Positions 23,986 through 58,137 of a stretch of DNA of 64,000 nucleotides are shown here, one piece after another. The notes beneath the pieces were generated by a model that was not told the origin of the DNA, searched no databases, and saw nothing but the letters and a program-made list of their open reading frames with translations. The stretch spans positions 248,001 through 312,000 of the forward strand of contig NZ_JBBIAB010000001.1 of the NCBI RefSeq assembly GCF_039634785.1, given 5' to 3'. This stretch comes from Tistrella mobilis. GTDB taxonomy: Bacteria; Pseudomonadota; Alphaproteobacteria; Tistrellales; Tistrellaceae. Positions within the stretch are counted from its first letter, which is position 1. Each line of letters begins with the position of its first letter. The position numbers were made by a program, and so were the translations under genes.

Positions 23986-24110
23986 GCTCGCCTCCCCCCT
24001 CAGGATCTACGAGAGGGCAGTTTCCGTGAACAGGTCGAGAACATCAAGTTCATTCGATGATATTCAACCGAAAGGTTTAATTTTTTGTTTATCAAATAAT
24101 TGGAGAGAGG

Positions 24111-37878: not shown

Positions 37879-38547
37879 TCAGCCGCCGGGGCGCCGGCGC
37901 GGCCCCGTGGGCCGCCGGATCCGCGGCCGGTGCCAGTGATGCTTCCACATCTGGTGGCGATGACGGCCGAACCCGTCCAGCGCCAGTTTCAGCGACCGGA
38001 AGGCATGGCCATGGCCCAGCCCGGTCTGGATCACGGCGTCGGCGCCGCGACGCTTTTCGGCATCCGGCACCTGTTTCGACAGAATGTCGCGAAACTTGGC
38101 CCGCGTCATCCCCGGACGGGCCAGCACCCGGCGGGCCTGCACCCAGTTGGGCGCGCTCACCACCAGTACGGCATCGACATGGGCATCGCCGCCGCCTTCG
38201 AACAGCAGCGGGATGTCCAGCACCACCATCGGTGCGCGCCGGCGGGCATGGCTTGCGATGAAGCGGCGCTGCTCGTCACGCACCAGCGGATGGATGATCC
38301 GCTCCAGCGCGCGCAGCTCCGCCTTGCGCCCGAAGACCCGGGCGCCCAGCGCCACCCGGTCGATGCGCCCGTCCTTCAGCGCCTCGGGGAAGCGCTCGAT
38401 CACCGGCCGGAAGGCGCGGCCGCCGGGGGCGAGCAGGGCATGCACGGTCGCATCGGCGTCGAAGACCGGCACGCGCAGCCGCCGGAACATCTTCGAGGTC
38501 GTCGACTTGCCCATGCCGATGGAACCGGTCAGGCCGATGATCAGCAT
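37879..38547 (-). CDS. coaE: dephospho-CoA kinase
   Basis: 222 residues. P-loop GLTGSIGMGKSTTSKMF at the N-terminus, FDADATVHALL for substrate binding and LDIPLLFEGGGDAHVDAVLVV as the family signature. Catalyses the last step of coenzyme A synthesis. The C-terminal ~20 residues are Arg/Pro rich and extra. The start overlaps the aroE end by 7 bp. Confidence 0.95.
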   Translation of the reverse strand: MLIIGLTGSIGMGKSTTSKMFRRLRVPVFDADATVHALLAPGGRAFRPVIERFPEALKDGRIDRVALGARVFGRKAELRALERIIHPLVRDEQRRFIASHARRRAPMVVLDIPLLFEGGGDAHVDAVLVVSAPNWVQARRVLARPGMTRAKFRDILSKQVPDAEKRRGADAVIQTGLGHGHAFRSLKLALDGFGRHRHQMWKHHWHRPRIRRPTGPRRRPGG

Positions 38548-39437
38548 GGGGCCTCCGCTCCGATCAGATCGGCGGCGACATGCCGGCGCAGGGCCGCATC
38601 GACCACGGGCCGCACCCCGAACCAGCGCTCGAAGCCCGGCACCGCCTGGTGCAGCAGCATGCCCAGCCCGTCGACCGCGACCAGCCCGCGGGCGCGGGCC
38701 GCCGTCAGGACCGGGGTCTCCAGCGGGTCGTAGACGATATCCGACACCACCAGCCGGTCATCCGCCCGCGCAAGATCGATCTCGAGCGGCGGCTGGCCGT
38801 GCAGCCCCAGGCTGGTGGTGTTGACCAGCGTGCCGCACCCGGCCAGCAGATCCGATCTGGCCGCCCAGTCCACCGCCTCCAGCACCGTCGCCGGGCAATG
38901 TGGCGCCAGATCGCGGATCAGGGCCTCAGCCCTTTCGGCCGTGCGGTTGGCGATCAGGATCCGCTCGGCACCGGCCTCGGCCAGGGCATAGACCACGGCG
39001 CGCGCAGCACCCCCCGCCCCCAGCACCAGGGCCGGTGCCGTCGCATCGCGTGCCGGCGCCCCGGCCGCCAGGGCGGCACCGAAGCCCCAGGCGTCGGTAT
39101 TGGTGCCGGTGATCCGGTGGTCTTCGCCGAAGACCAGGGTGTTGACCGCGCCGATCGCGCGGGCCACCGGCTCGACCTCGTCGCAGAGCGGAAGCACCAG
39201 TTCCTTGTGCGGCAGGGTCAGATTGACGCCGCGAAAGCCCATGCGGGGCAGGGCCGGCAGGGTCTCGGCCAGATCCCCGGGCCGGATCGCCAGCGGCAGA
39301 TAGGCGCCGTCGATCCGGTGGCGTGCCAGCCAGAAGCCGTGCAGGCGCGGCGACCGCGAATGGGTGACGGGGTGTCCGATCACGCCGGCCAGCCGTGCGG
39401 CGCCGCTGATCCAGACGGGATGCAGGGGTTCAGTCAT
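38541..39437 (-). CDS. aroE: shikimate dehydrogenase
   Basis: 298 residues. Shikimate-binding HSRSPRLHGFWL and NLTLPHKELVLPL (catalytic Lys), NADP-binding VLGAGGAARAVVYALAEAG and NRTAERAEAL (NADP-preferring loop). Reduces 3-dehydroshikimate in aromatic amino acid synthesis. Part of the maf-aroE-coaE-dnaQ operon; 14 bp after maf. Confidence 0.96.
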   Translation of the reverse strand: MTEPLHPVWISGAARLAGVIGHPVTHSRSPRLHGFWLARHRIDGAYLPLAIRPGDLAETLPALPRMGFRGVNLTLPHKELVLPLCDEVEPVARAIGAVNTLVFGEDHRITGTNTDAWGFGAALAAGAPARDATAPALVLGAGGAARAVVYALAEAGAERILIANRTAERAEALIRDLAPHCPATVLEAVDWAARSDLLAGCGTLVNTTSLGLHGQPPLEIDLARADDRLVVSDIVYDPLETPVLTAARARGLVAVDGLGMLLHQAVPGFERWFGVRPVVDAALRRHVAADLIGAEAPC

Positions 39438-39451
39438 CAGGCGCCCGTCCG

Positions 39452-40087
39452 TCAGCTCGGGATCACGCCGCGCAGGCGCAGGAAGTCCAGCAGCTCGATC
39501 AGCGGCAGGCCCAGTATGGTGAAATAGTCGCCCTCGACCTTCGAGAACAGCTGCGCACCCAGCCCCTCCAGCTGATAGGCGCCGACCGAGCCCAGCACCG
39601 CCTCTCCGGCCCGGTCCAGATACTGGTCGATGAAGGCGGGGGACAGCGGGCGCATGGTCAGCCGGGCGCGGCCGATGGCATGCCAGACCCGGGCGCCGTC
39701 GATGGTGACCACCGCGGCCGAGATCAGCTCGTGACGCCGGCCCGACAGGGCCTCCAGCGTCGCGCGGGCGCCGTCGCGATCGGCGGGCTTGTCGAACCAG
39801 CGGCCGTCGGCGACCAGCATCTGGTCGCAGCCCAGCACCGGCACCCGGCCGGCACGGCCCGAGATCCGGCGGGCCTTCATCTCGGCCAGCATCACCGCCA
39901 CATCCTCGGCCGGCGCACCCTCGGCGGCCATCGCCTCCTTCACCGCCGTCTCGTCGATGCGGGCGGGCAGGGCCAGGAAATCGAGCCCGGCACCCGCCAG
40001 CAGCTTCGCGCGCGCGGCACTTTCAGAGGCCAGAATCAGCCGCGGTTCCGCGGCGGCGGTGTCGTCACGGGTCGGCACAGGGGTCAT
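39452..40087 (-). CDS. maf: Maf-family nucleotide pyrophosphatase
   Basis: 211 residues. The N-terminal substrate loop ILASESAARAKLLAGAGLDF, the central VLGCDQMLVADGRWFDKP and DGARATLEALSGRRHELISAAVV match Maf house-cleaning pyrophosphatases (dTTP/UTP or m7GTP type). The conserved SxSPRR start is ASESAARA here, as in the alphaproteobacterial m7GTP subgroup. Four bp after ppsR. Confidence 0.92.
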   Translation of the reverse strand: MTPVPTRDDTAAAEPRLILASESAARAKLLAGAGLDFLALPARIDETAVKEAMAAEGAPAEDVAVMLAEMKARRISGRAGRVPVLGCDQMLVADGRWFDKPADRDGARATLEALSGRRHELISAAVVTIDGARVWHAIGRARLTMRPLSPAFIDQYLDRAGEAVLGSVGAYQLEGLGAQLFSKVEGDYFTILGLPLIELLDFLRLRGVIPS

Positions 40088-40091
40088 CGGG

Positions 40092-41045
40092 TCAACTCTC
40101 CCCCAGATGGCGCAGATACATCTGATAGATCGCGGCGGCGGTTTCCTCGATCGACCGGCGGGTCACGTCGATCACCGGCCAGCCCTTGCGCTCGAACAGC
40201 CGGCGGGCGGCGATCACCTCGGTGCGCACCGCATCGATGTCGATATATTCCCCGTCATCGGGCTGGTTCAGGCTCAGCAGCCGGTTGCGGCGGATCTGCA
40301 CCAGCCGTTCGGGGCTGGTGGTCAGCCCTACGATGAACGGCCGCGTGGCGCTTTCCACCTCCTCCGGCAGGGGCTGGCCGGGCACCAGCGGCACATTGGC
40401 GGCCTTCACCCCACGATTGGCCAGATAGATCGCGGTCGGCGTCTTGGAGCTCCGCGACACGCCGACCAGGATGATATCGGCATCGTCGATGTCCCAGAGC
40501 GACTGGCCGTCATCATGGATCAGCGCGAAATGCATCGCATCGATCCGGGCGAAATATTCCTGGTCGAGCATATGCCGCCGCCCGGGCCGGCGGGAGACCG
40601 ACACCCCCAGATAGCCGCTGACGATGTCGGTGATCTGGTCCAGCACCGGCACGCAGGGGACCTTCAGCCGCCGGCAGGCCTCTTCCAGCCGCTCGCGCAA
40701 TTCGCTGAGCGCCAGCGTATACATGACCAGGCCCGGATGGGCCTCGATCGACTGGATCACCTTTTCCAGCTGCGCCGGAGAGCGGACCAGCGACCAGACA
40801 TGCTCGCGCGCATCCACCCCGTCGAACTGGGCCAGCACGGCACGGGCGACCGTGTTCACGGTCTCGCCGCTTGAATCCGACACCAGATGCAGGTCGAACA
40901 AAACCTGTTCGCGATGCAGATCTGCACCATGGCCGCCGCCGCGCAATGCCGGCGCGGCACCCGCTGCCCCGTCGGCAGAGGGGCTGAGCGCGGGGGCTGC
41001 GGGGGTGGGGCGCGGCGGCGCCGCGGTCGGCTCGTCTTCGGCCAT
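40092..41045 (-). CDS. ppsR: PEP synthase/PPDK regulatory protein (PPSR, DUF299)
   Basis: 317 residues. A ~45-residue Ala/Pro-rich N-terminal extension is followed by the DUF299 domain: HLVSDSSGETVNTVARAVLAQF, and the P-loop GVSRSSKTPTAIYLANRG. A bifunctional ADP-dependent kinase/phosphorylase that switches PEP synthase or pyruvate phosphate dikinase; no such target gene is in the window. ATG 41045 has GGAG six bases upstream; the extra TTG reading to 41060 is rejected. First gene of the leftward unit leaving oriC. Confidence 0.94.
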   Translation of the reverse strand: MAEDEPTAAPPRPTPAAPALSPSADGAAGAAPALRGGGHGADLHREQVLFDLHLVSDSSGETVNTVARAVLAQFDGVDAREHVWSLVRSPAQLEKVIQSIEAHPGLVMYTLALSELRERLEEACRRLKVPCVPVLDQITDIVSGYLGVSVSRRPGRRHMLDQEYFARIDAMHFALIHDDGQSLWDIDDADIILVGVSRSSKTPTAIYLANRGVKAANVPLVPGQPLPEEVESATRPFIVGLTTSPERLVQIRRNRLLSLNQPDDGEYIDIDAVRTEVIAARRLFERKGWPVIDVTRRSIEETAAAIYQMYLRHLGES

Positions 41046-41797
41046 CCGGATCTCCAGCAAGCGTCGTCGGGGGCGATGTTCGCGCCCTGTTCATGCCCCG
41101 TTCACGGCTGTGGATAACCCGGAATTACGGGGGCCGAACGGGGTCTGGCGTCGGGCGCTCATATTGCGTCACCGCTCTTCATCTGTCATCCGCCGAGCCG
41201 TCTCCATGTGGGCAGCCGCCCGGGGATGGCGGCGACGGTGCGAGGACGGCCGTCGGGGAGGGCAGAGTTTTCCACGTTATCCACGACATTATCCCCCGAG
41301 ACTCCGCGCGCGACTCCGGAGTTATCCACTCAGGCCTCCGAAGGGTGCCGGCAGATCGTCCACATGGGGGCTTTTCTGTGGATGGTTTGTGAATGGGTGG
41401 GGATCCCCGATATCCACAGGCACCCTCTATCCTCTACAACCTTTCCATCCCGAATCCCTTCCTTTCTGCAGATGGGGCCTTGTCCACAGGGCGAGAGAAC
41501 TGCAGTCTGGGGCCGGAACATGCGGTTCGCATGGTTCGAACGAAAGCCGGAGCGCAACGGGGTTGTGCAGCCGAACGGGTGGCTTTTGCCATCATCAGGC
41601 GTTGCCGTTTCGGCAACGCCATGCCGATCCGGCAACGGCAGAGACGTTCGGTCGCAGCCGAAAACGAAAATCGCCCACGGACTCCGCTGGAATCGAATCT
41701 TCCGAACGGGCATGATCCGCGCGACCGGCGGCAGGGCCGGCCGACCGTCCTTTGCCGACGCGGCCGTCTGCCTGCCAGAGATCCGAGGACCGCATCG
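41046..41797. other. oriC: putative chromosomal replication origin (oriC)
   Basis: 752 bp with no gene between divergent ppsR and hemE, the classic alphaproteobacterial oriC position. DnaA boxes: TGTGGATAA (41109-41117), TTATCCACG (41277-41285), TTATCCACT (41322-41330), ATATCCACA (41410-41418) and TTGTCCACA (41480-41488), with weaker ones at 41268 and 41377. GANTC methylation sites at 41300, 41312, 41452, 41680, 41690 and 41695. A perfect 10-bp-stem hairpin lies at 41598-41620. No strongly AT-rich unwinding stretch is obvious. Genes on both sides mostly point away. Confidence 0.85.
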
Positions 41798-42850
41798 ATG
41801 ACCGAGACCACCAAGCCGCTGCTCGCCGCCCTCAAAGGCGGGCATCCGGACCGGACCCCGATCTGGCTGATGCGTCAGGCCGGCCGCTACCTGCCGGAAT
41901 ATCGCGAGCTTCGGGCGCGCTCGAAGGGGTTCCTCGATCTCTGCTACAGCCCGGATCTTGCGACCGAAGTGACCCTTCAGCCGCTGCGCCGCTTCGATCT
42001 GGATGCGGCGATCCTGTTTTCGGACATCCTGGTCGTGCCCCACGGTCTGGGTCAGACGGTCTGGTTCGCCGAAGGCGAGGGGCCGCGGCTCGATCCGATC
42101 CGTGATGCCGCGGGCCTGGCCGCGCTCGATCCCGAACGGGTCACCTCTTTCCTGGCGCCGGTCTATGAAACCGCCGCGCGGGTGAAGGCGGCGCTGCCCG
42201 AGGGCCGGGCGCTGATCGGTTTTGCCGGCGCCCCCTGGACCATCGCGACCTATATGGTCGAAGGCGGCTCCAGCAAGGATTTCCTCAACACCAAGCGCTG
42301 GGCCTATGGTGACCCGGACGGCTTCCAGGTGCTGATCGATCTGATCGTCGATGCGACCGTCCGTCATCTGGAGGCGCAGATCGCCGCGGGTGCCGAGGCG
42401 GTGCAGATTTTCGACAGCTGGGCCGGGGCGCTGGACGAAGACGGGTTCGATCGCTGGACGGTCACGCCCATCCGCAGCATCGCCAGCCGGATCCGTGCCG
42501 CGCATCCGGATCTGCCGATCATCGGCTTTCCGAACCGGGCCGGCACGCTATATGAGCATTTCGTCCGGAATGCCGGTGTCGATGCGGTCAGCGTCGATCC
42601 GACCTGGAGCGTGGAGGCGATCGCCACCCGTCTCCGGCCGCATGTCGCGGTTCAGGGCAATCTCGATCCCGGCCGTCTGGTCGCGGGCGGGCCGGATCTC
42701 ACCCGCAGGGTGCGGAAGATATGTGACCGGCTGGCTCCGATGGGCGGTTTCGTCTTCAATCTCGGCCATGGCGTCCTGCCGCCGACCGATCCCGGCCATG
42801 TCGCCCAGGTGATCGCTGCAGTGCGCGAGGCCGATGCCGCGAGAGTCTGA
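41798..42850 (+). CDS. hemE: uroporphyrinogen decarboxylase
   Basis: 350 residues. N-terminal signature PIWLMRQAGRYLPEYRELR, the substrate region GFAGAPWTIATYMVEGGSSKDF and the C-terminal LGHGVLPPTDP. Cytosolic enzyme converting uroporphyrinogen III to coproporphyrinogen III. ATG 41798 fits the family start; a longer in-frame reading into oriC is rejected. First of hemE-hemH-hemJ. Confidence 0.97.
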   Translation: MTETTKPLLAALKGGHPDRTPIWLMRQAGRYLPEYRELRARSKGFLDLCYSPDLATEVTLQPLRRFDLDAAILFSDILVVPHGLGQTVWFAEGEGPRLDPIRDAAGLAALDPERVTSFLAPVYETAARVKAALPEGRALIGFAGAPWTIATYMVEGGSSKDFLNTKRWAYGDPDGFQVLIDLIVDATVRHLEAQIAAGAEAVQIFDSWAGALDEDGFDRWTVTPIRSIASRIRAAHPDLPIIGFPNRAGTLYEHFVRNAGVDAVSVDPTWSVEAIATRLRPHVAVQGNLDPGRLVAGGPDLTRRVRKICDRLAPMGGFVFNLGHGVLPPTDPGHVAQVIAAVREADAARV

Positions 42851-42858
42851 TACAGGTT

Positions 42859-43950
42859 ATGATCAAGGAACGTGACAATAAGGAAACGGGACGAATCGCT
42901 GTCCTGTTGTTCAATCTCGGCGGGCCCGACGGGCCGGATGCCGTTCAGCCGTTCCTGTTCAACCTGTTCTTCGATCCGGCGATCATCTCGCTGCCCCTGC
43001 CGCTGCGCTGGGCGATCGCGAAGCTGATCAGCACCCGTCGTGCGCCCTTTGCGCGGGAAAACTACGCCCTGATGGGCGGCGGCTCGCCGCTTCTGCCGGA
43101 AACCCTGCGCCAGGCCCGGGCGCTGGAGGCAGAGCTGTCGGGTCGCGGGCAAACGGTCAGGGCCTGGCCGGTGATGCGCTACTGGCATCCCTTCGCGCCC
43201 GAGGTGGCGGCCGAGGTCAAGGCCTGGGCGCCCGACCGGATCATCGCCCTGCCGCTCTATCCGCAGTTCTCCACCTCGACCAGCGCCTCGTCGCTCAAGG
43301 ACTGGGATCGGGCCGCCCGCAAGGCCGGGCTGAGGGTGCCGACCTCGACCGTCTGCTGCTGGCCGGTCGAACCCGGCCTGGTCGAGGCGCATGCAAGCCT
43401 GATCGTGGAGCGTTGGCACCAGGCCGAGGCCGAGGCACCGGGCCGGCCGATGCGCATCCTGCTTTCGGCCCATGGCCTGCCGAAGAAGATCATCGAGCGG
43501 GGCGACCCCTATCAGTGGCAGGTGGAACAGAGCTGTGCCGCGGTGATGGACCGGGTGGCGGCGATGCTCGGCCGGCCGCTTGAGACCATCGACTGGCAGG
43601 TCTGCTATCAAAGCCGGGTGGGGCCGCTGGAATGGATCGGCCCCTCGACCGATGCCGAGGTCGAACGGGCAGGGCGGGACGGTTGCGGCCTGATCCTGGT
43701 GCCGATCGCCTTCGTCTCGGAACATGTCGAGACCCTGGTCGAGCTCGACGTCGAATACCGCCACCTCGCCGAAAAATCCGGCGTCACGCCCTATCTGCGG
43801 GCGCCCACACCCACCACCCATCCGGCCTTCATCCGCGGGCTGGGCGATCTGGTGATGCAGGCGGCGGGGCGCGAGGGGGTGGCGCCCGATCGGGCAGGGC
43901 CGTCCTGTCCCGCAAAATTCGGCCGCTGCGCCTGCCGCGCCCATACCTGA
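42859..43950 (+). CDS. hemH: ferrochelatase
   Basis: 363 residues. Inserts Fe2+ into protoporphyrin IX. Catalytic His in LLSAHGLPKKIIERGDPY and the Glu site in VSEHVETLVELDVEYRHLA. The C-terminus CPAKFGRCACR is Cys-rich, consistent with the [2Fe-2S] cluster of alphaproteobacterial ferrochelatases. Eight bp after hemE. The last codons fall in a 15-bp repeat array. Confidence 0.96.
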   Translation: MIKERDNKETGRIAVLLFNLGGPDGPDAVQPFLFNLFFDPAIISLPLPLRWAIAKLISTRRAPFARENYALMGGGSPLLPETLRQARALEAELSGRGQTVRAWPVMRYWHPFAPEVAAEVKAWAPDRIIALPLYPQFSTSTSASSLKDWDRAARKAGLRVPTSTVCCWPVEPGLVEAHASLIVERWHQAEAEAPGRPMRILLSAHGLPKKIIERGDPYQWQVEQSCAAVMDRVAAMLGRPLETIDWQVCYQSRVGPLEWIGPSTDAEVERAGRDGCGLILVPIAFVSEHVETLVELDVEYRHLAEKSGVTPYLRAPTPTTHPAFIRGLGDLVMQAAGREGVAPDRAGPSCPAKFGRCACRAHT

Positions 43951-44005
43951 CGCATGACTCCCTGACGCACGACTCCCTGCCGCGCCGGTACCTGCCGCGA
44001 CCGCA
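43931..44005. repeat. 15-bp tandem repeat array spanning the hemH stop
   Basis: Five degenerate 15-bp units beginning CCTG: 43931, 43946 (CCTGACGCATGACTC), 43961 (CCTGACGCACGACTC), 43976 and 43991. The hemH TGA is in the second unit and is duplicated in the third. The first unit encodes hemH residues. Confidence 0.85.
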
Positions 44006-44034
44006 ACCAGCCATCCGAGACGAGGCACCATCCC

Positions 44035-44481
44035 ATGATCGACGCATTCGCCGGCGCCTATCCCTGGTTCAAGGCCCTGCATGTGATCTCGGTGATCGCC
44101 TGGATGGCCGGCATGTTCTATCTGCCGCGGCTGTTCGTCTATCACGCCGATGCCGCCCCGGGATCCGAACTGTCCGAGCGCTTCAAGGTGATGGAGCGTC
44201 GATTGCTGAAGGCGATCATCAATCCGGCGATGATCGCCACCTGGCTGTTCGGCATTCTGATCCTGACCACCGGGGCGGTCTCGCTGTCGGAAGGCTGGCT
44301 GCATGCCAAGATCGCCCTGGTGCTGATCATGTCGGGCATGCATGGCGCCTTCAGCGCCTGGCGCCGGGCCTTTGCGGAAGATCGCAACCGCCATTCCGCG
44401 CGCTTCTATCGCTGGATGAACGAGGTGCCGACGGTGCTGATGATCGGCATCGTGATCCTGGTGATCGTGAAGCCCTTCTGA
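44035..44481 (+). CDS. hemJ: protoporphyrinogen oxidase HemJ
   Basis: 148-residue inner-membrane protein with four helices. The conserved haem/active-site His16 is in WFKALHVISVIAWMAGMFYLPRLFVYH and SEGWLHAKIALVL carries the second His/Lys pair. Oxidises protoporphyrinogen IX. Completes a hemE-hemH-hemJ unit typical for this class. Confidence 0.95.
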   Translation: MIDAFAGAYPWFKALHVISVIAWMAGMFYLPRLFVYHADAAPGSELSERFKVMERRLLKAIINPAMIATWLFGILILTTGAVSLSEGWLHAKIALVLIMSGMHGAFSAWRRAFAEDRNRHSARFYRWMNEVPTVLMIGIVILVIVKPF

Positions 44482-45164
44482 TCCGACCGGAGGGGGTGGT
44501 GGGTCCCCATGGCGGGGCAGAGAGCGTGACAATTGCGCGATTCTGCCGGAAATCGACCAAGGTCGTATCGATTTCCGGCGTATCGGATTTGACAGCGGCC
44601 ATGTGACGCGCTAACTGATTAGGCATCGGCACGGTTGACGTGCCGGTGAAGCCGGTATCGTGACGTTCGTCCCATGCCTGCGGCATGCCGGGACGGAACG
44701 GACAGACGGACGTCGCCGGGCGACATGCTTCACCCGTCACCACCCGCGCCGCCGCATTGGCCGGGCGGTGGGCATTCAGGGATCGCAGTTGCGGGTACCG
44801 GTCCGGATCGCCAGGCTCTCTGCGCCGACGCGGTCTTTCAGTCCTCTCCTCGTCGATCGAACCCCTTCAGGACCACATCCGTTTCCGGAACCGAACCGGG
44901 CCGTTACCGGTTCGTGATCGACGTCGATGATCCTCGACGTCTCCGCTCACATGGTTTGTGTCCGGCCGGCGCCCTGCCGGCCCGTTCTGGATGACCGGAC
45001 TGTCCGGGTGGTTCGGCCCGACCATTCGACACACACGCACGCAGCCTGTCTGCCGGGCTTGCGTAAAACAGGTTGAGCCAGGCGTCGCCCCGGCTTCGTC
45101 GTTGAACGGGATCCCGCCATTCCGGCGCCCCCCGTCCGTCGACCCCCGATCGGAAATCCATCGC
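44482..45164 (+). other. long leader region upstream of rho, no gene
   Basis: 683 bp with no supported ORF. Candidate promoter parts are TTGACA at 44589 (no good -10) and TTGACG at 44635 with TATCGT at 44656 (short 15-bp spacer). Further down, hairpins form from CGTCGA/TCGACG (around 44928-44948) and GGCCGGC/GCCGGCC (around 44960-44980). A long untranslated leader fits the autoregulation known for rho genes. Confidence 0.55.
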
Positions 45165-46431: not shown

Positions 46432-46447
46432 TGTTCCACGTGGAACG
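46432..46447. other. parS: parS site (1)
   Basis: TGTTCCACGTGGAACG, one or two mismatches from the bacterial parS consensus TGTTTCACGTGAAACA and fully palindromic over 14 bp. Eight bases after the rho stop. An identical 16-mer lies 69 bp away. Confidence 0.85.
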
Positions 46448-46500: not shown

Positions 46501-46516
46501 TGTTCCACGTGGAACG
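46501..46516. other. parS: parS site (2)
   Basis: TGTTCCACGTGGAACG, identical to the site at 46432. Together the pair brackets the rho terminator. Confidence 0.85.
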
Positions 46517-53583: not shown

Positions 53584-53599
53584 TGTTCCACGTGAAACG
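53584..53599. other. parS: parS site (3)
   Basis: TGTTCCACGTGAAACG, one mismatch from a perfect inverted repeat and two from the parS consensus TGTTTCACGTGAAACA. In the mnmE-mnmG gap, 2.8 kb from parA. Confidence 0.88.
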
Positions 53600-55683: not shown

Positions 55684-56412
55684 ATGGCACGCAAGCCCGA
55701 TCCCCGCCGCTTCAGCCCCAGGCCGGCGGCTCAACCGCGCACGGCCGAGCCGGCCGGTCCCGCCGGCGCCGACCACGACATCATCCGGCCGCGGATCGAT
55801 GCGCTGCTCGCCGGGGTTCCACGTGAAACCCTCGACCGGCTGGAGATTTACGCCGAAAGGCTCATCCGCTGGCAGGGGGCGATCAATCTGGTCGGCCCGG
55901 CGACCCTGCCCGAACTCTGGCGCCGGCACATGCTCGATTCGGCCCAGCTTCTGCCGCTGATCGGCCCGGCTGCCGGCCGGCGTCTGGTCGATCTGGGCTC
56001 CGGCGCCGGCTTTCCCGGGCTGGTGCTGGCGGCGCTGACCGATCTGGATGTTCATCTGGTCGAAAGCGACACCCGCAAGGCGATCTTCCTGCGGGAGACG
56101 GCCCGGGCGATGGGCATCACCGTCACCGTCCATGCCGAACGCATCGAACGCCTGCAAGCCCTGGGCGCCGACCTGGTCTCCGCCCGCGCGCTCGCCCCAT
56201 TGGACAAGCTTCTTGAGATGGCCATTCCGCTTGCCCGCCCGGATGCCGTATTCTGGTTCCTGAAAGGCGCCCAGGCCGAGGCCGAGATTGCAGCCGCCCG
56301 CACCCGCTGGACAATGCAGGTGGTATGCCATAGAAGTATGACCGACGAGGGTGGCGTCATCCTTGAAGCGAAGGGGCTGTCTCGTGTCCAAGACCGTGAC
56401 CAATCCCGCTGA
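55684..56412 (+). CDS. rsmG: 16S rRNA (guanine-527-N7) methyltransferase
   Basis: 242 residues with a ~30-residue Pro/Ala-rich N-terminal tail. SAM-binding motif RLVDLGSGAGFPGLVLA at 100-116, and HLVESDTRKAIFLRETAR. The VPRETLDRL segment (residues 45-53) is encoded by a parS site, as in many bacteria. Starts 5 bp after mnmG. The 3' end overlaps parA by 29 bp. Confidence 0.95.
   Translation: MARKPDPRRFSPRPAAQPRTAEPAGPAGADHDIIRPRIDALLAGVPRETLDRLEIYAERLIRWQGAINLVGPATLPELWRRHMLDSAQLLPLIGPAAGRRLVDLGSGAGFPGLVLAALTDLDVHLVESDTRKAIFLRETARAMGITVTVHAERIERLQALGADLVSARALAPLDKLLEMAIPLARPDAVFWFLKGAQAEAEIAAARTRWTMQVVCHRSMTDEGGVILEAKGLSRVQDRDQSR
55815..55830. other. parS: parS site (4), inside rsmG
   Basis: GGTTCCACGTGAAACC, one mismatch from perfect symmetry, inside the rsmG coding sequence where it specifies VPRET. 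About 550 bp from parA. Confidence 0.88.
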
Positions 56413-57204
56413 TGCGGCGCCTCAGGGCACCGGTCGCGTGCTGGCCATCGCAAACCAGAAGGGCGGCGTCGGTAAGACCACGACCGCGATCAACCTGGCG
56501 ACCGCACTGGCTGCGGCGCGCAAGCGGGTTCTGGTGATCGATCTCGATCCGCAGGGCAATGCATCGACCGGGCTGGGCATCGATGCCGGCCAGCGGGATC
56601 CGTCGAGCTATGATGTGCTGATGGGCGAGGCGAGCCTTGCCGAGGCGATCGTCGAAACCGATGTGCCCGGGCTGGCGGTGGTGCCGGCGGTGGTCGATCT
56701 GACCGGCGCCGAAATCGAGCTGATCGAGCGCCCGGCCCGCGAGCGCCGGCTGCGCATGGCGCTGGGTGCCGAGGGACTACCGCCGTACGACTACATCTTC
56801 ATCGACTGCCCGCCCTCGCTCGGCATTCTGACCCTGAATTCCCTGGTCGCCGCCGATGCGGTGCTGGTGCCGCTGCAGTGTGAGTTCTTCGCCCTGGAAG
56901 GTGTCAGCCAGCTGGTGCGGACGGTCGACCGGGTGCGCCGCTCGCTCAACCCGCGGCTCGACATTCAGGGCGTGGTGCTGACCATGTTCGACAACCGCAA
57001 CAACCTGTCCAACCAGGTTGCGGCGGATGTGCGCAACTTCTTCGGCGACAAGGTCTACAAGACCGTGATCCCGCGCAATGTCCGCGTGTCGGAAGCGCCC
57101 AGCCATGGCAAGCCGGTGCTGCTCTATGATCACCGCTGCGCCGGGGCCAAGGCCTATATCCATCTGGCAGGTGAAGTGCTGAAGCGCGAACGGGGGGTGG
57201 CCGC

Positions 57205-57208
<4 letters not shown>
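56384..57208 (+). CDS. parA: chromosome partitioning ATPase ParA
   Basis: 274 residues from GTG 56384, preceded by AAGGGG. Deviant Walker A ANQKGGVGKTTTAINLA (KGGVGKTT at 26-33), DLDPQGNASTGLGI and DCPPSLGILTLNSLVAADAVLVPLQCEFFALEG. Drives segregation of ParB-parS complexes. The start is inside rsmG; an ATG at 56351 would add an unconserved stretch. Confidence 0.96.

Positions 57209-58137
<929 letters not shown>

Follow-up and report, generated by a model that had tools for sequence, protein, structure and literature searches.

The gap between the genes ppsR and hemE (positions 41046-41797) is predicted from its sequence to be the origin of replication (oriC) of a Tistrella chromosome, and this assignment is very probably correct. 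All positions refer to the window, i.e., the whole analysed stretch of 64,000 nucleotides, which corresponds to positions 248001-312000 of a contig in a 6.16-Mb Tistrella draft genome with 62 contigs. The computed basis of the prediction comprises the position of the gap, its cluster of DnaA boxes, the GC skew, parS-type sites and the homology of a conserved module (Table 1). An earlier note on the same DNA had claimed oriC at this locus, and the skew, the parS-type sites, synteny, the uniqueness of the cluster and the module all agree with it.

The HemE protein of the window shows 100% identity to its counterpart in Tistrella mobilis KA081020-065 (NC_017956.1), and the DNA identity over 3 kb around the gap amounts to 97.4% with this genome and to 91.4% with a second Tistrella genome (G001). 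Judged by sequence similarity, NC_017956.1 is the closed genome of a strain that belongs to the same species or to one very close to it. The gene order is dnaQ-like, coaE, aroE, maf and ppsR on the left side of the gap, and hemE, hemH, hemJ, rho, a stretch of about 5.7 kb, mnmE, mnmG, rsmG, parA and parB on the right side; the frames that were tried in the 5.7 kb between rho and mnmE gave no Pfam match. The dnaA gene is located about 181 kb away. The coordinates of the gap are exact, the gene flow is divergent as had been claimed, and the arrangement of the two flanking genes is that of an alphaproteobacterial oriC of the hemE/COG1806 type. The origins of Caulobacter and Rickettsia have been reported to lie between hemE and COG1806 (PMC1914354). 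A search of positions 40000-45000 against Rfam retrieved nothing at the gathering score.

Table 1. Coordinates of the predicted Tistrella oriC and of associated features (positions in the window)
Feature	Position	Strand	Remark
ppsR (DUF299, COG1806)	40092..41045	-	in-frame ATG at 41045
Intergenic region ppsR/hemE, predicted oriC	41046..41797		752 bp; DnaA boxes, uniqueness of cluster, divergent flanks
Perfect DnaA box TTATCCACA	41109..41117	-	kept in G001 and T. mobilis
DnaA box TTATCCACG	41277..41285	+	at most 1 mismatch
DnaA box TTATCCACT	41322..41330	+	at most 1 mismatch; TTATCCACC in both Tistrella relatives
Conserved alphaproteobacterial origin module	41378..41445	+	profile match, E 1.2e-6
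DnaA box ATATCCACA	41410..41418	+	at most 1 mismatch; within conserved module
Degenerate three-base (DnaA-trio-like) track	41419..41440	- (putative; trios 3' to 5' away from box)	by homology
Counterpart of the relatives' AT-rich tract; predicted opening site	41441..41485		44% AT
DnaA box TTGTCCACA	41480..41488	+	at most 1 mismatch
Spacer upstream of hemE	41489..41797		present in all three Tistrella sequences; other gaps mostly with short spacer
hemE	41798..42850	+	
parS-type site	46433..46446		
parS-type site	46502..46515		
parS-type site	53585..53598		mnmE/mnmG intergenic, given an mnmG start at in-frame ATG 53729
parS-type site	55816..55829		within rsmG (gidB) reading frame
ParA-type ATPase (parA)	56351..57208	+	
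parB	57205..58137	+	

The conservation of the hemE neighborhood, also claimed beforehand, was assessed in related genomes, with the best 80 of 348 relatives kept in the HemE scan. The set of 109 loci (L003-L111), which was picked by similarity to PpsR and HemE and may include named and unnamed copies of one genome (L018 and L067 look alike), contains 99 loci with matches to both proteins, while one match is missing in the other ten. The two genes are divergent neighbors in all 99 measurable loci. Of the 58 related genomes searched, no more than 30 gave a PpsR match (28 of the 43 that are more complete), and judged by these matches the gene pair is therefore not universal in the class. The 99 gaps, whose ends are those of tblastn matches and may thus include some coding bases, harbor 6.6 DnaA boxes per kb versus 0.2 in the flanks and 9.4 GANTC sites per kb versus 2.0. 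At least one box with at most one mismatch is present in 91 of the gaps, two in 72, three in 52 and none in eight. One member of the set, a MAG contig labelled as Gammaproteobacteria (L055), also has ppsR and hemE in divergent orientation around a gap of alphaproteobacterial type, and its label may be wrong.

The earlier note had counted at least five DnaA boxes, one of them perfect, and exactly this was recovered. All five sites of the window with at most one mismatch to TTATCCACA are located inside the gap, and four further boxes of the gap become apparent at two mismatches, none of them in the spacer upstream of hemE (41489-41797). In 500 dinucleotide shuffles of positions 41061-41797 the mean number of boxes with at most one mismatch was 0.05 and the maximum two. 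The scan of T. mobilis, which covered 1,999,492 bases in 100 stretches (51% of the chromosome), revealed 84 box sites and among them one cluster of five within 500 bp, located at the ppsR/hemE gap; elsewhere in the scanned stretches there were never more than two boxes per 500 bp (0.02 expected). A three-box pattern including the intervening gaps occurs once in each of the three whole Tistrella genomes, always at ppsR/hemE. The perfect box is not enriched genome-wide, with 9 to 12 copies per genome versus 12 to 15 for the reversed control and a lower number in each genome. The evidential weight rests on the cluster and not on the perfect box as such.

Two other occurrences of perfect boxes may be mentioned. 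All three Tistrella genomes have a single one about 153-154 kb rightward of the origin (T. mobilis 3892156, i.e., L209 12156; G000:C1:443049; G001:C4:4890157), and in T. mobilis its neighbors are a tRNA-methyltransferase-like frame on one side and a rimP/nusA-like pair on the other, all named by eye from the translation. Moreover, two perfect boxes that are 26 bp apart were found on another contig at G000:C39:9043 and 9069, perhaps representing a plasmid origin.

A GC-skew switch had been suggested as a check, and its outcome supports the assignment with the minimum 9 kb away from the boxes on a flat curve, in T. mobilis NC_017956.1 rather than in the draft genome of the window. The skew of the closed 3.92-Mb chromosome was determined from 98 stretches of 20 kb, taking every second one (half of the bases). 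Cumulative G-C is lowest at the end of the 3.76-3.78 Mb stretch and highest at 1.80-1.84 Mb; at a resolution of 2 kb over 3.72-3.78 Mb the minimum falls at 3.748 Mb, with the boxes at 3.739 Mb. This minimum is shallow, the curve is flat over 3.74-3.78 Mb (about 40 kb), and the trend is locally broken at 40-60 kb and at 2.44-2.50 Mb. The point opposite the boxes (1.78 Mb) is close to the skew maximum. In G001, where 40 stretches from 1 to 3.335 Mb of 4.917 Mb were used, the maximum of the partial curve at 2.30 Mb compares with an opposite point at 2.28 Mb, provided that the contig is a closed chromosome. The 64-kb window taken alone also has a flat curve, and its cumulative skew reaches the lowest value at 48-51 kb, which is 7 to 9 kb rightward of the gap. 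A dif-like fragment had no match in the three Tistrella genomes, and the terminus is thus placed by the skew only.

The parS-type sequence GTTNCACGTGNAAC has four matches in each of the three Tistrella genomes and none for the reversed control, and all four are consistently located to the right of the gap within 15 kb. Those of the window are found about 5 to 14 kb from the gap in the vicinity of parAB. A stricter 16-base form of parS with two mismatches recovers one of the four sites.

Side-by-side inspection of 29 gaps suggests that they share a module in which CCCC is followed by a DnaA-box-like site, a short spacer and a three-base track (CTACTACTAC-like), with an AT-rich tract after it. 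A profile was built without Tistrella from 79 non-redundant examples, which remained from 97 gaps after removal of eight with the peak in the left 60% and of ten more that were near-identical. In 2.07 Mb of sequence this profile matched all four copies of the Tistrella origin that are included and, outside of them, nothing with a better E value than 7. The module of the window scores 29.3 bits compared with 9.2 bits for the best of 500 shuffled gaps. As it precedes the AT-rich opening tract in the relatives, we infer that the Tistrella opening site may be placed at about 41420-41490. The distance from the module to hemE (357 bp) is the largest of the set, with a maximum of 267 bp outside Tistrella and a median of 68 bp. 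The median distance of the most AT-rich 50 bp from the start of the HemE match is 57 bp in the 99 gaps, and the values for the two Tistrella loci are 348 and 363 bp.

The earlier note had called an AT-rich unwinding element not obvious, and this is also true for the homologous place, which could nevertheless be located. The 45 bases following the module contain 44% AT compared with a median of 64% (99 of 100 sequences with a match, including the three Tistrella). Counted from the lowest of 99 composition-corrected values, the tract ranks sixth in the window, fourth in T. mobilis and ninth in G001; since the tracts of L018, L067, L047 and L110 are equally low in AT, a GC-rich opening tract is unusual but not unique. 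The AT content is 36% in 41061-41797 versus 30% in the window and reaches 52% in the best 50 bp. At the 100-bp scale the region from 41371 onward is among the three least stable places of the window, and the gap thus holds a spot that is soft in relative but not in absolute terms. The 100 bp with the highest AT content in the window (24002-24101, 64% AT) are distant from the origin.

A strict trio test (a box, a spacer of at most 16 bases and at least three NAN trios) found no run of three trios adjoining box 41410, with at most two on the proposed strand and side. One run of three was detected at box 41109 on a different strand and side, and it is absent from G001. Among the 99 gaps, runs of at least three strict trios are present in 58, 48, 37 and 43 according to the class of strand and side, 48 being the value of the proposed class. 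Strict trios alone do not single out this strand and side, and because the scan separates the classes poorly the profile was used instead.

Laying the published basal unwinding system on the module would assign the trios to the minus strand on the right side of box 41410. In that system DnaA reportedly starts at a box and is loaded from there onto trios (consensus 3'-GAT-5') of one strand in 3' to 5' direction (PMC8287927, PMC6669920), and trios are reported to be missing in 15% of genomes (PMC8287927). The order of parts is alike in Tistrella, with box 41410, a spacer, the three-base track and the opening tract, but the box is accompanied by fewer than three consecutive strict trios. It is possible, if rather doubtful, that chromosome opening in Tistrella takes place at a GC-rich site that has no AT-rich unwinding tract and no more than a degenerate three-base track, the module being displaced from hemE by about 290 bp beyond the usual distance. 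Opening at this site would then lean less on soft DNA than on contacts between DnaA and the strand or on a helper protein.

From these features we infer DnaA loading, strand choice, opening site, helicase entry and ParB binding as follows. DnaA would bind the box cluster 41109-41330 plus box 41410, from which loading would proceed onto the minus strand of the three-base track to its immediate right, and would open the duplex at about 41420-41490. The helicase would then enter, and the forks would exit leftwards via ppsR and rightwards via hemE, while ParB on the four right-hand parS-type sites would segregate the copies. Taken as a whole, the gap is very probably the origin of the main chromosome, with this scheme of DnaA loading, opening and ParB-based segregation as its proposed mode of action.

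In many bacteria DnaA also regulates transcription, and the promoters of both ppsR and hemE are to be expected in the gap. It might accordingly be a DnaA-regulated divergent promoter region while replication starts elsewhere, but an origin at the gap is indicated by the skew minimum and the parS-type sites as well as by the single box cluster, which makes this reading highly improbable. A scan of 40900-41900 for the sigma-70 consensus gave no hit, a result of little weight for an alphaproteobacterium. Bipartite origins are known to open at a place separate from the boxes, and the DNA could be opened outside of an origin that is nevertheless located at the gap, e.g., at the AT-richer hemE/hemH junction, given that the best 50-bp AT fraction within 38000-45000 is 0.58 at 42848 compared with 0.52 in the gap. 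However, the module that precedes the AT-rich tract in the relatives maps inside the gap, and position 42848 is more than 1.3 kb away from the nearest box of the window; opening at such an outside site is hence very unlikely.

The Tistrella locus is very probably an ordinary origin of a known kind at the location expected for it. Its novelty is that of a further instance, and what is odd about it, the opening tract, is so in quantitative terms. It shares with Cori of Caulobacter crescentus the flanking genes, a DnaA box cluster and nearby parS (PMC1914354, PMC4468827). Cori is CtrA-controlled, whereas positions 41061-41797 of Tistrella lack CtrA sites (TTAA-N7-TTAA as well as the loose form TTWW-N7-TTWW) and IHF consensus sites. 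A search for response regulators at a very strict cut-off had no match anywhere, the control genomes included, and therefore carries no information. Tistrella has one perfect high-affinity box, while weaker G- and W-boxes are reported for Cori (PMC4468827), and the reported 40-bp AT-rich region of the latter has no counterpart in Tistrella. The origin of Rickettsia prowazekii is bordered by the same genes, but it comprises 384 bp with 82.6% AT (PMC1914354) compared with 752 bp and 36% AT in the Tistrella gap. The prediction places the origin of a chromosome in a genus known for didemnins (PMC10811503). A literature search for Tistrella and origin of replication retrieved only didemnin work and no origin study, and a search for the complete T. 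mobilis genome had no title with an origin among the matches listed. As a natural case of a GC-rich opening tract, this origin provides a test object for how far DnaA-strand contacts could replace AT-rich DNA.

Six GANTC sites had been put forward as a further pointer to oriC. The count is correct (6 of the 47 in the window), but its weight as an origin argument is reduced since dinucleotide shuffles of the gap often reach this number (113 of 500). In the T. mobilis stretches, 39 of 38,590 sliding 737-bp windows, including those of the origin, contain at least six GANTC sites, which are thus enriched relative to the genome and not relative to local composition. One RAMA-domain match is present in the genome of the window, presumably fitting a CcrM-type GANTC methylase, and among 14 control genomes the domain was matched only in Caulobacter.

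The dyad TTGCCGNNNCGGCAA at 41602 was rejected as a special element, with four places per genome versus one, three and two for the reversed control. It belongs to the first of two 19-bp tandem near-repeats at 41602-41640 in the box-free spacer, carrying TTGCCG-NNN-CGGCAA, while the second repeat is a worn copy. The dyad is kept in G001 with its center changed from TTT to AAA, and the repeats are possibly a protein site or a hairpin.
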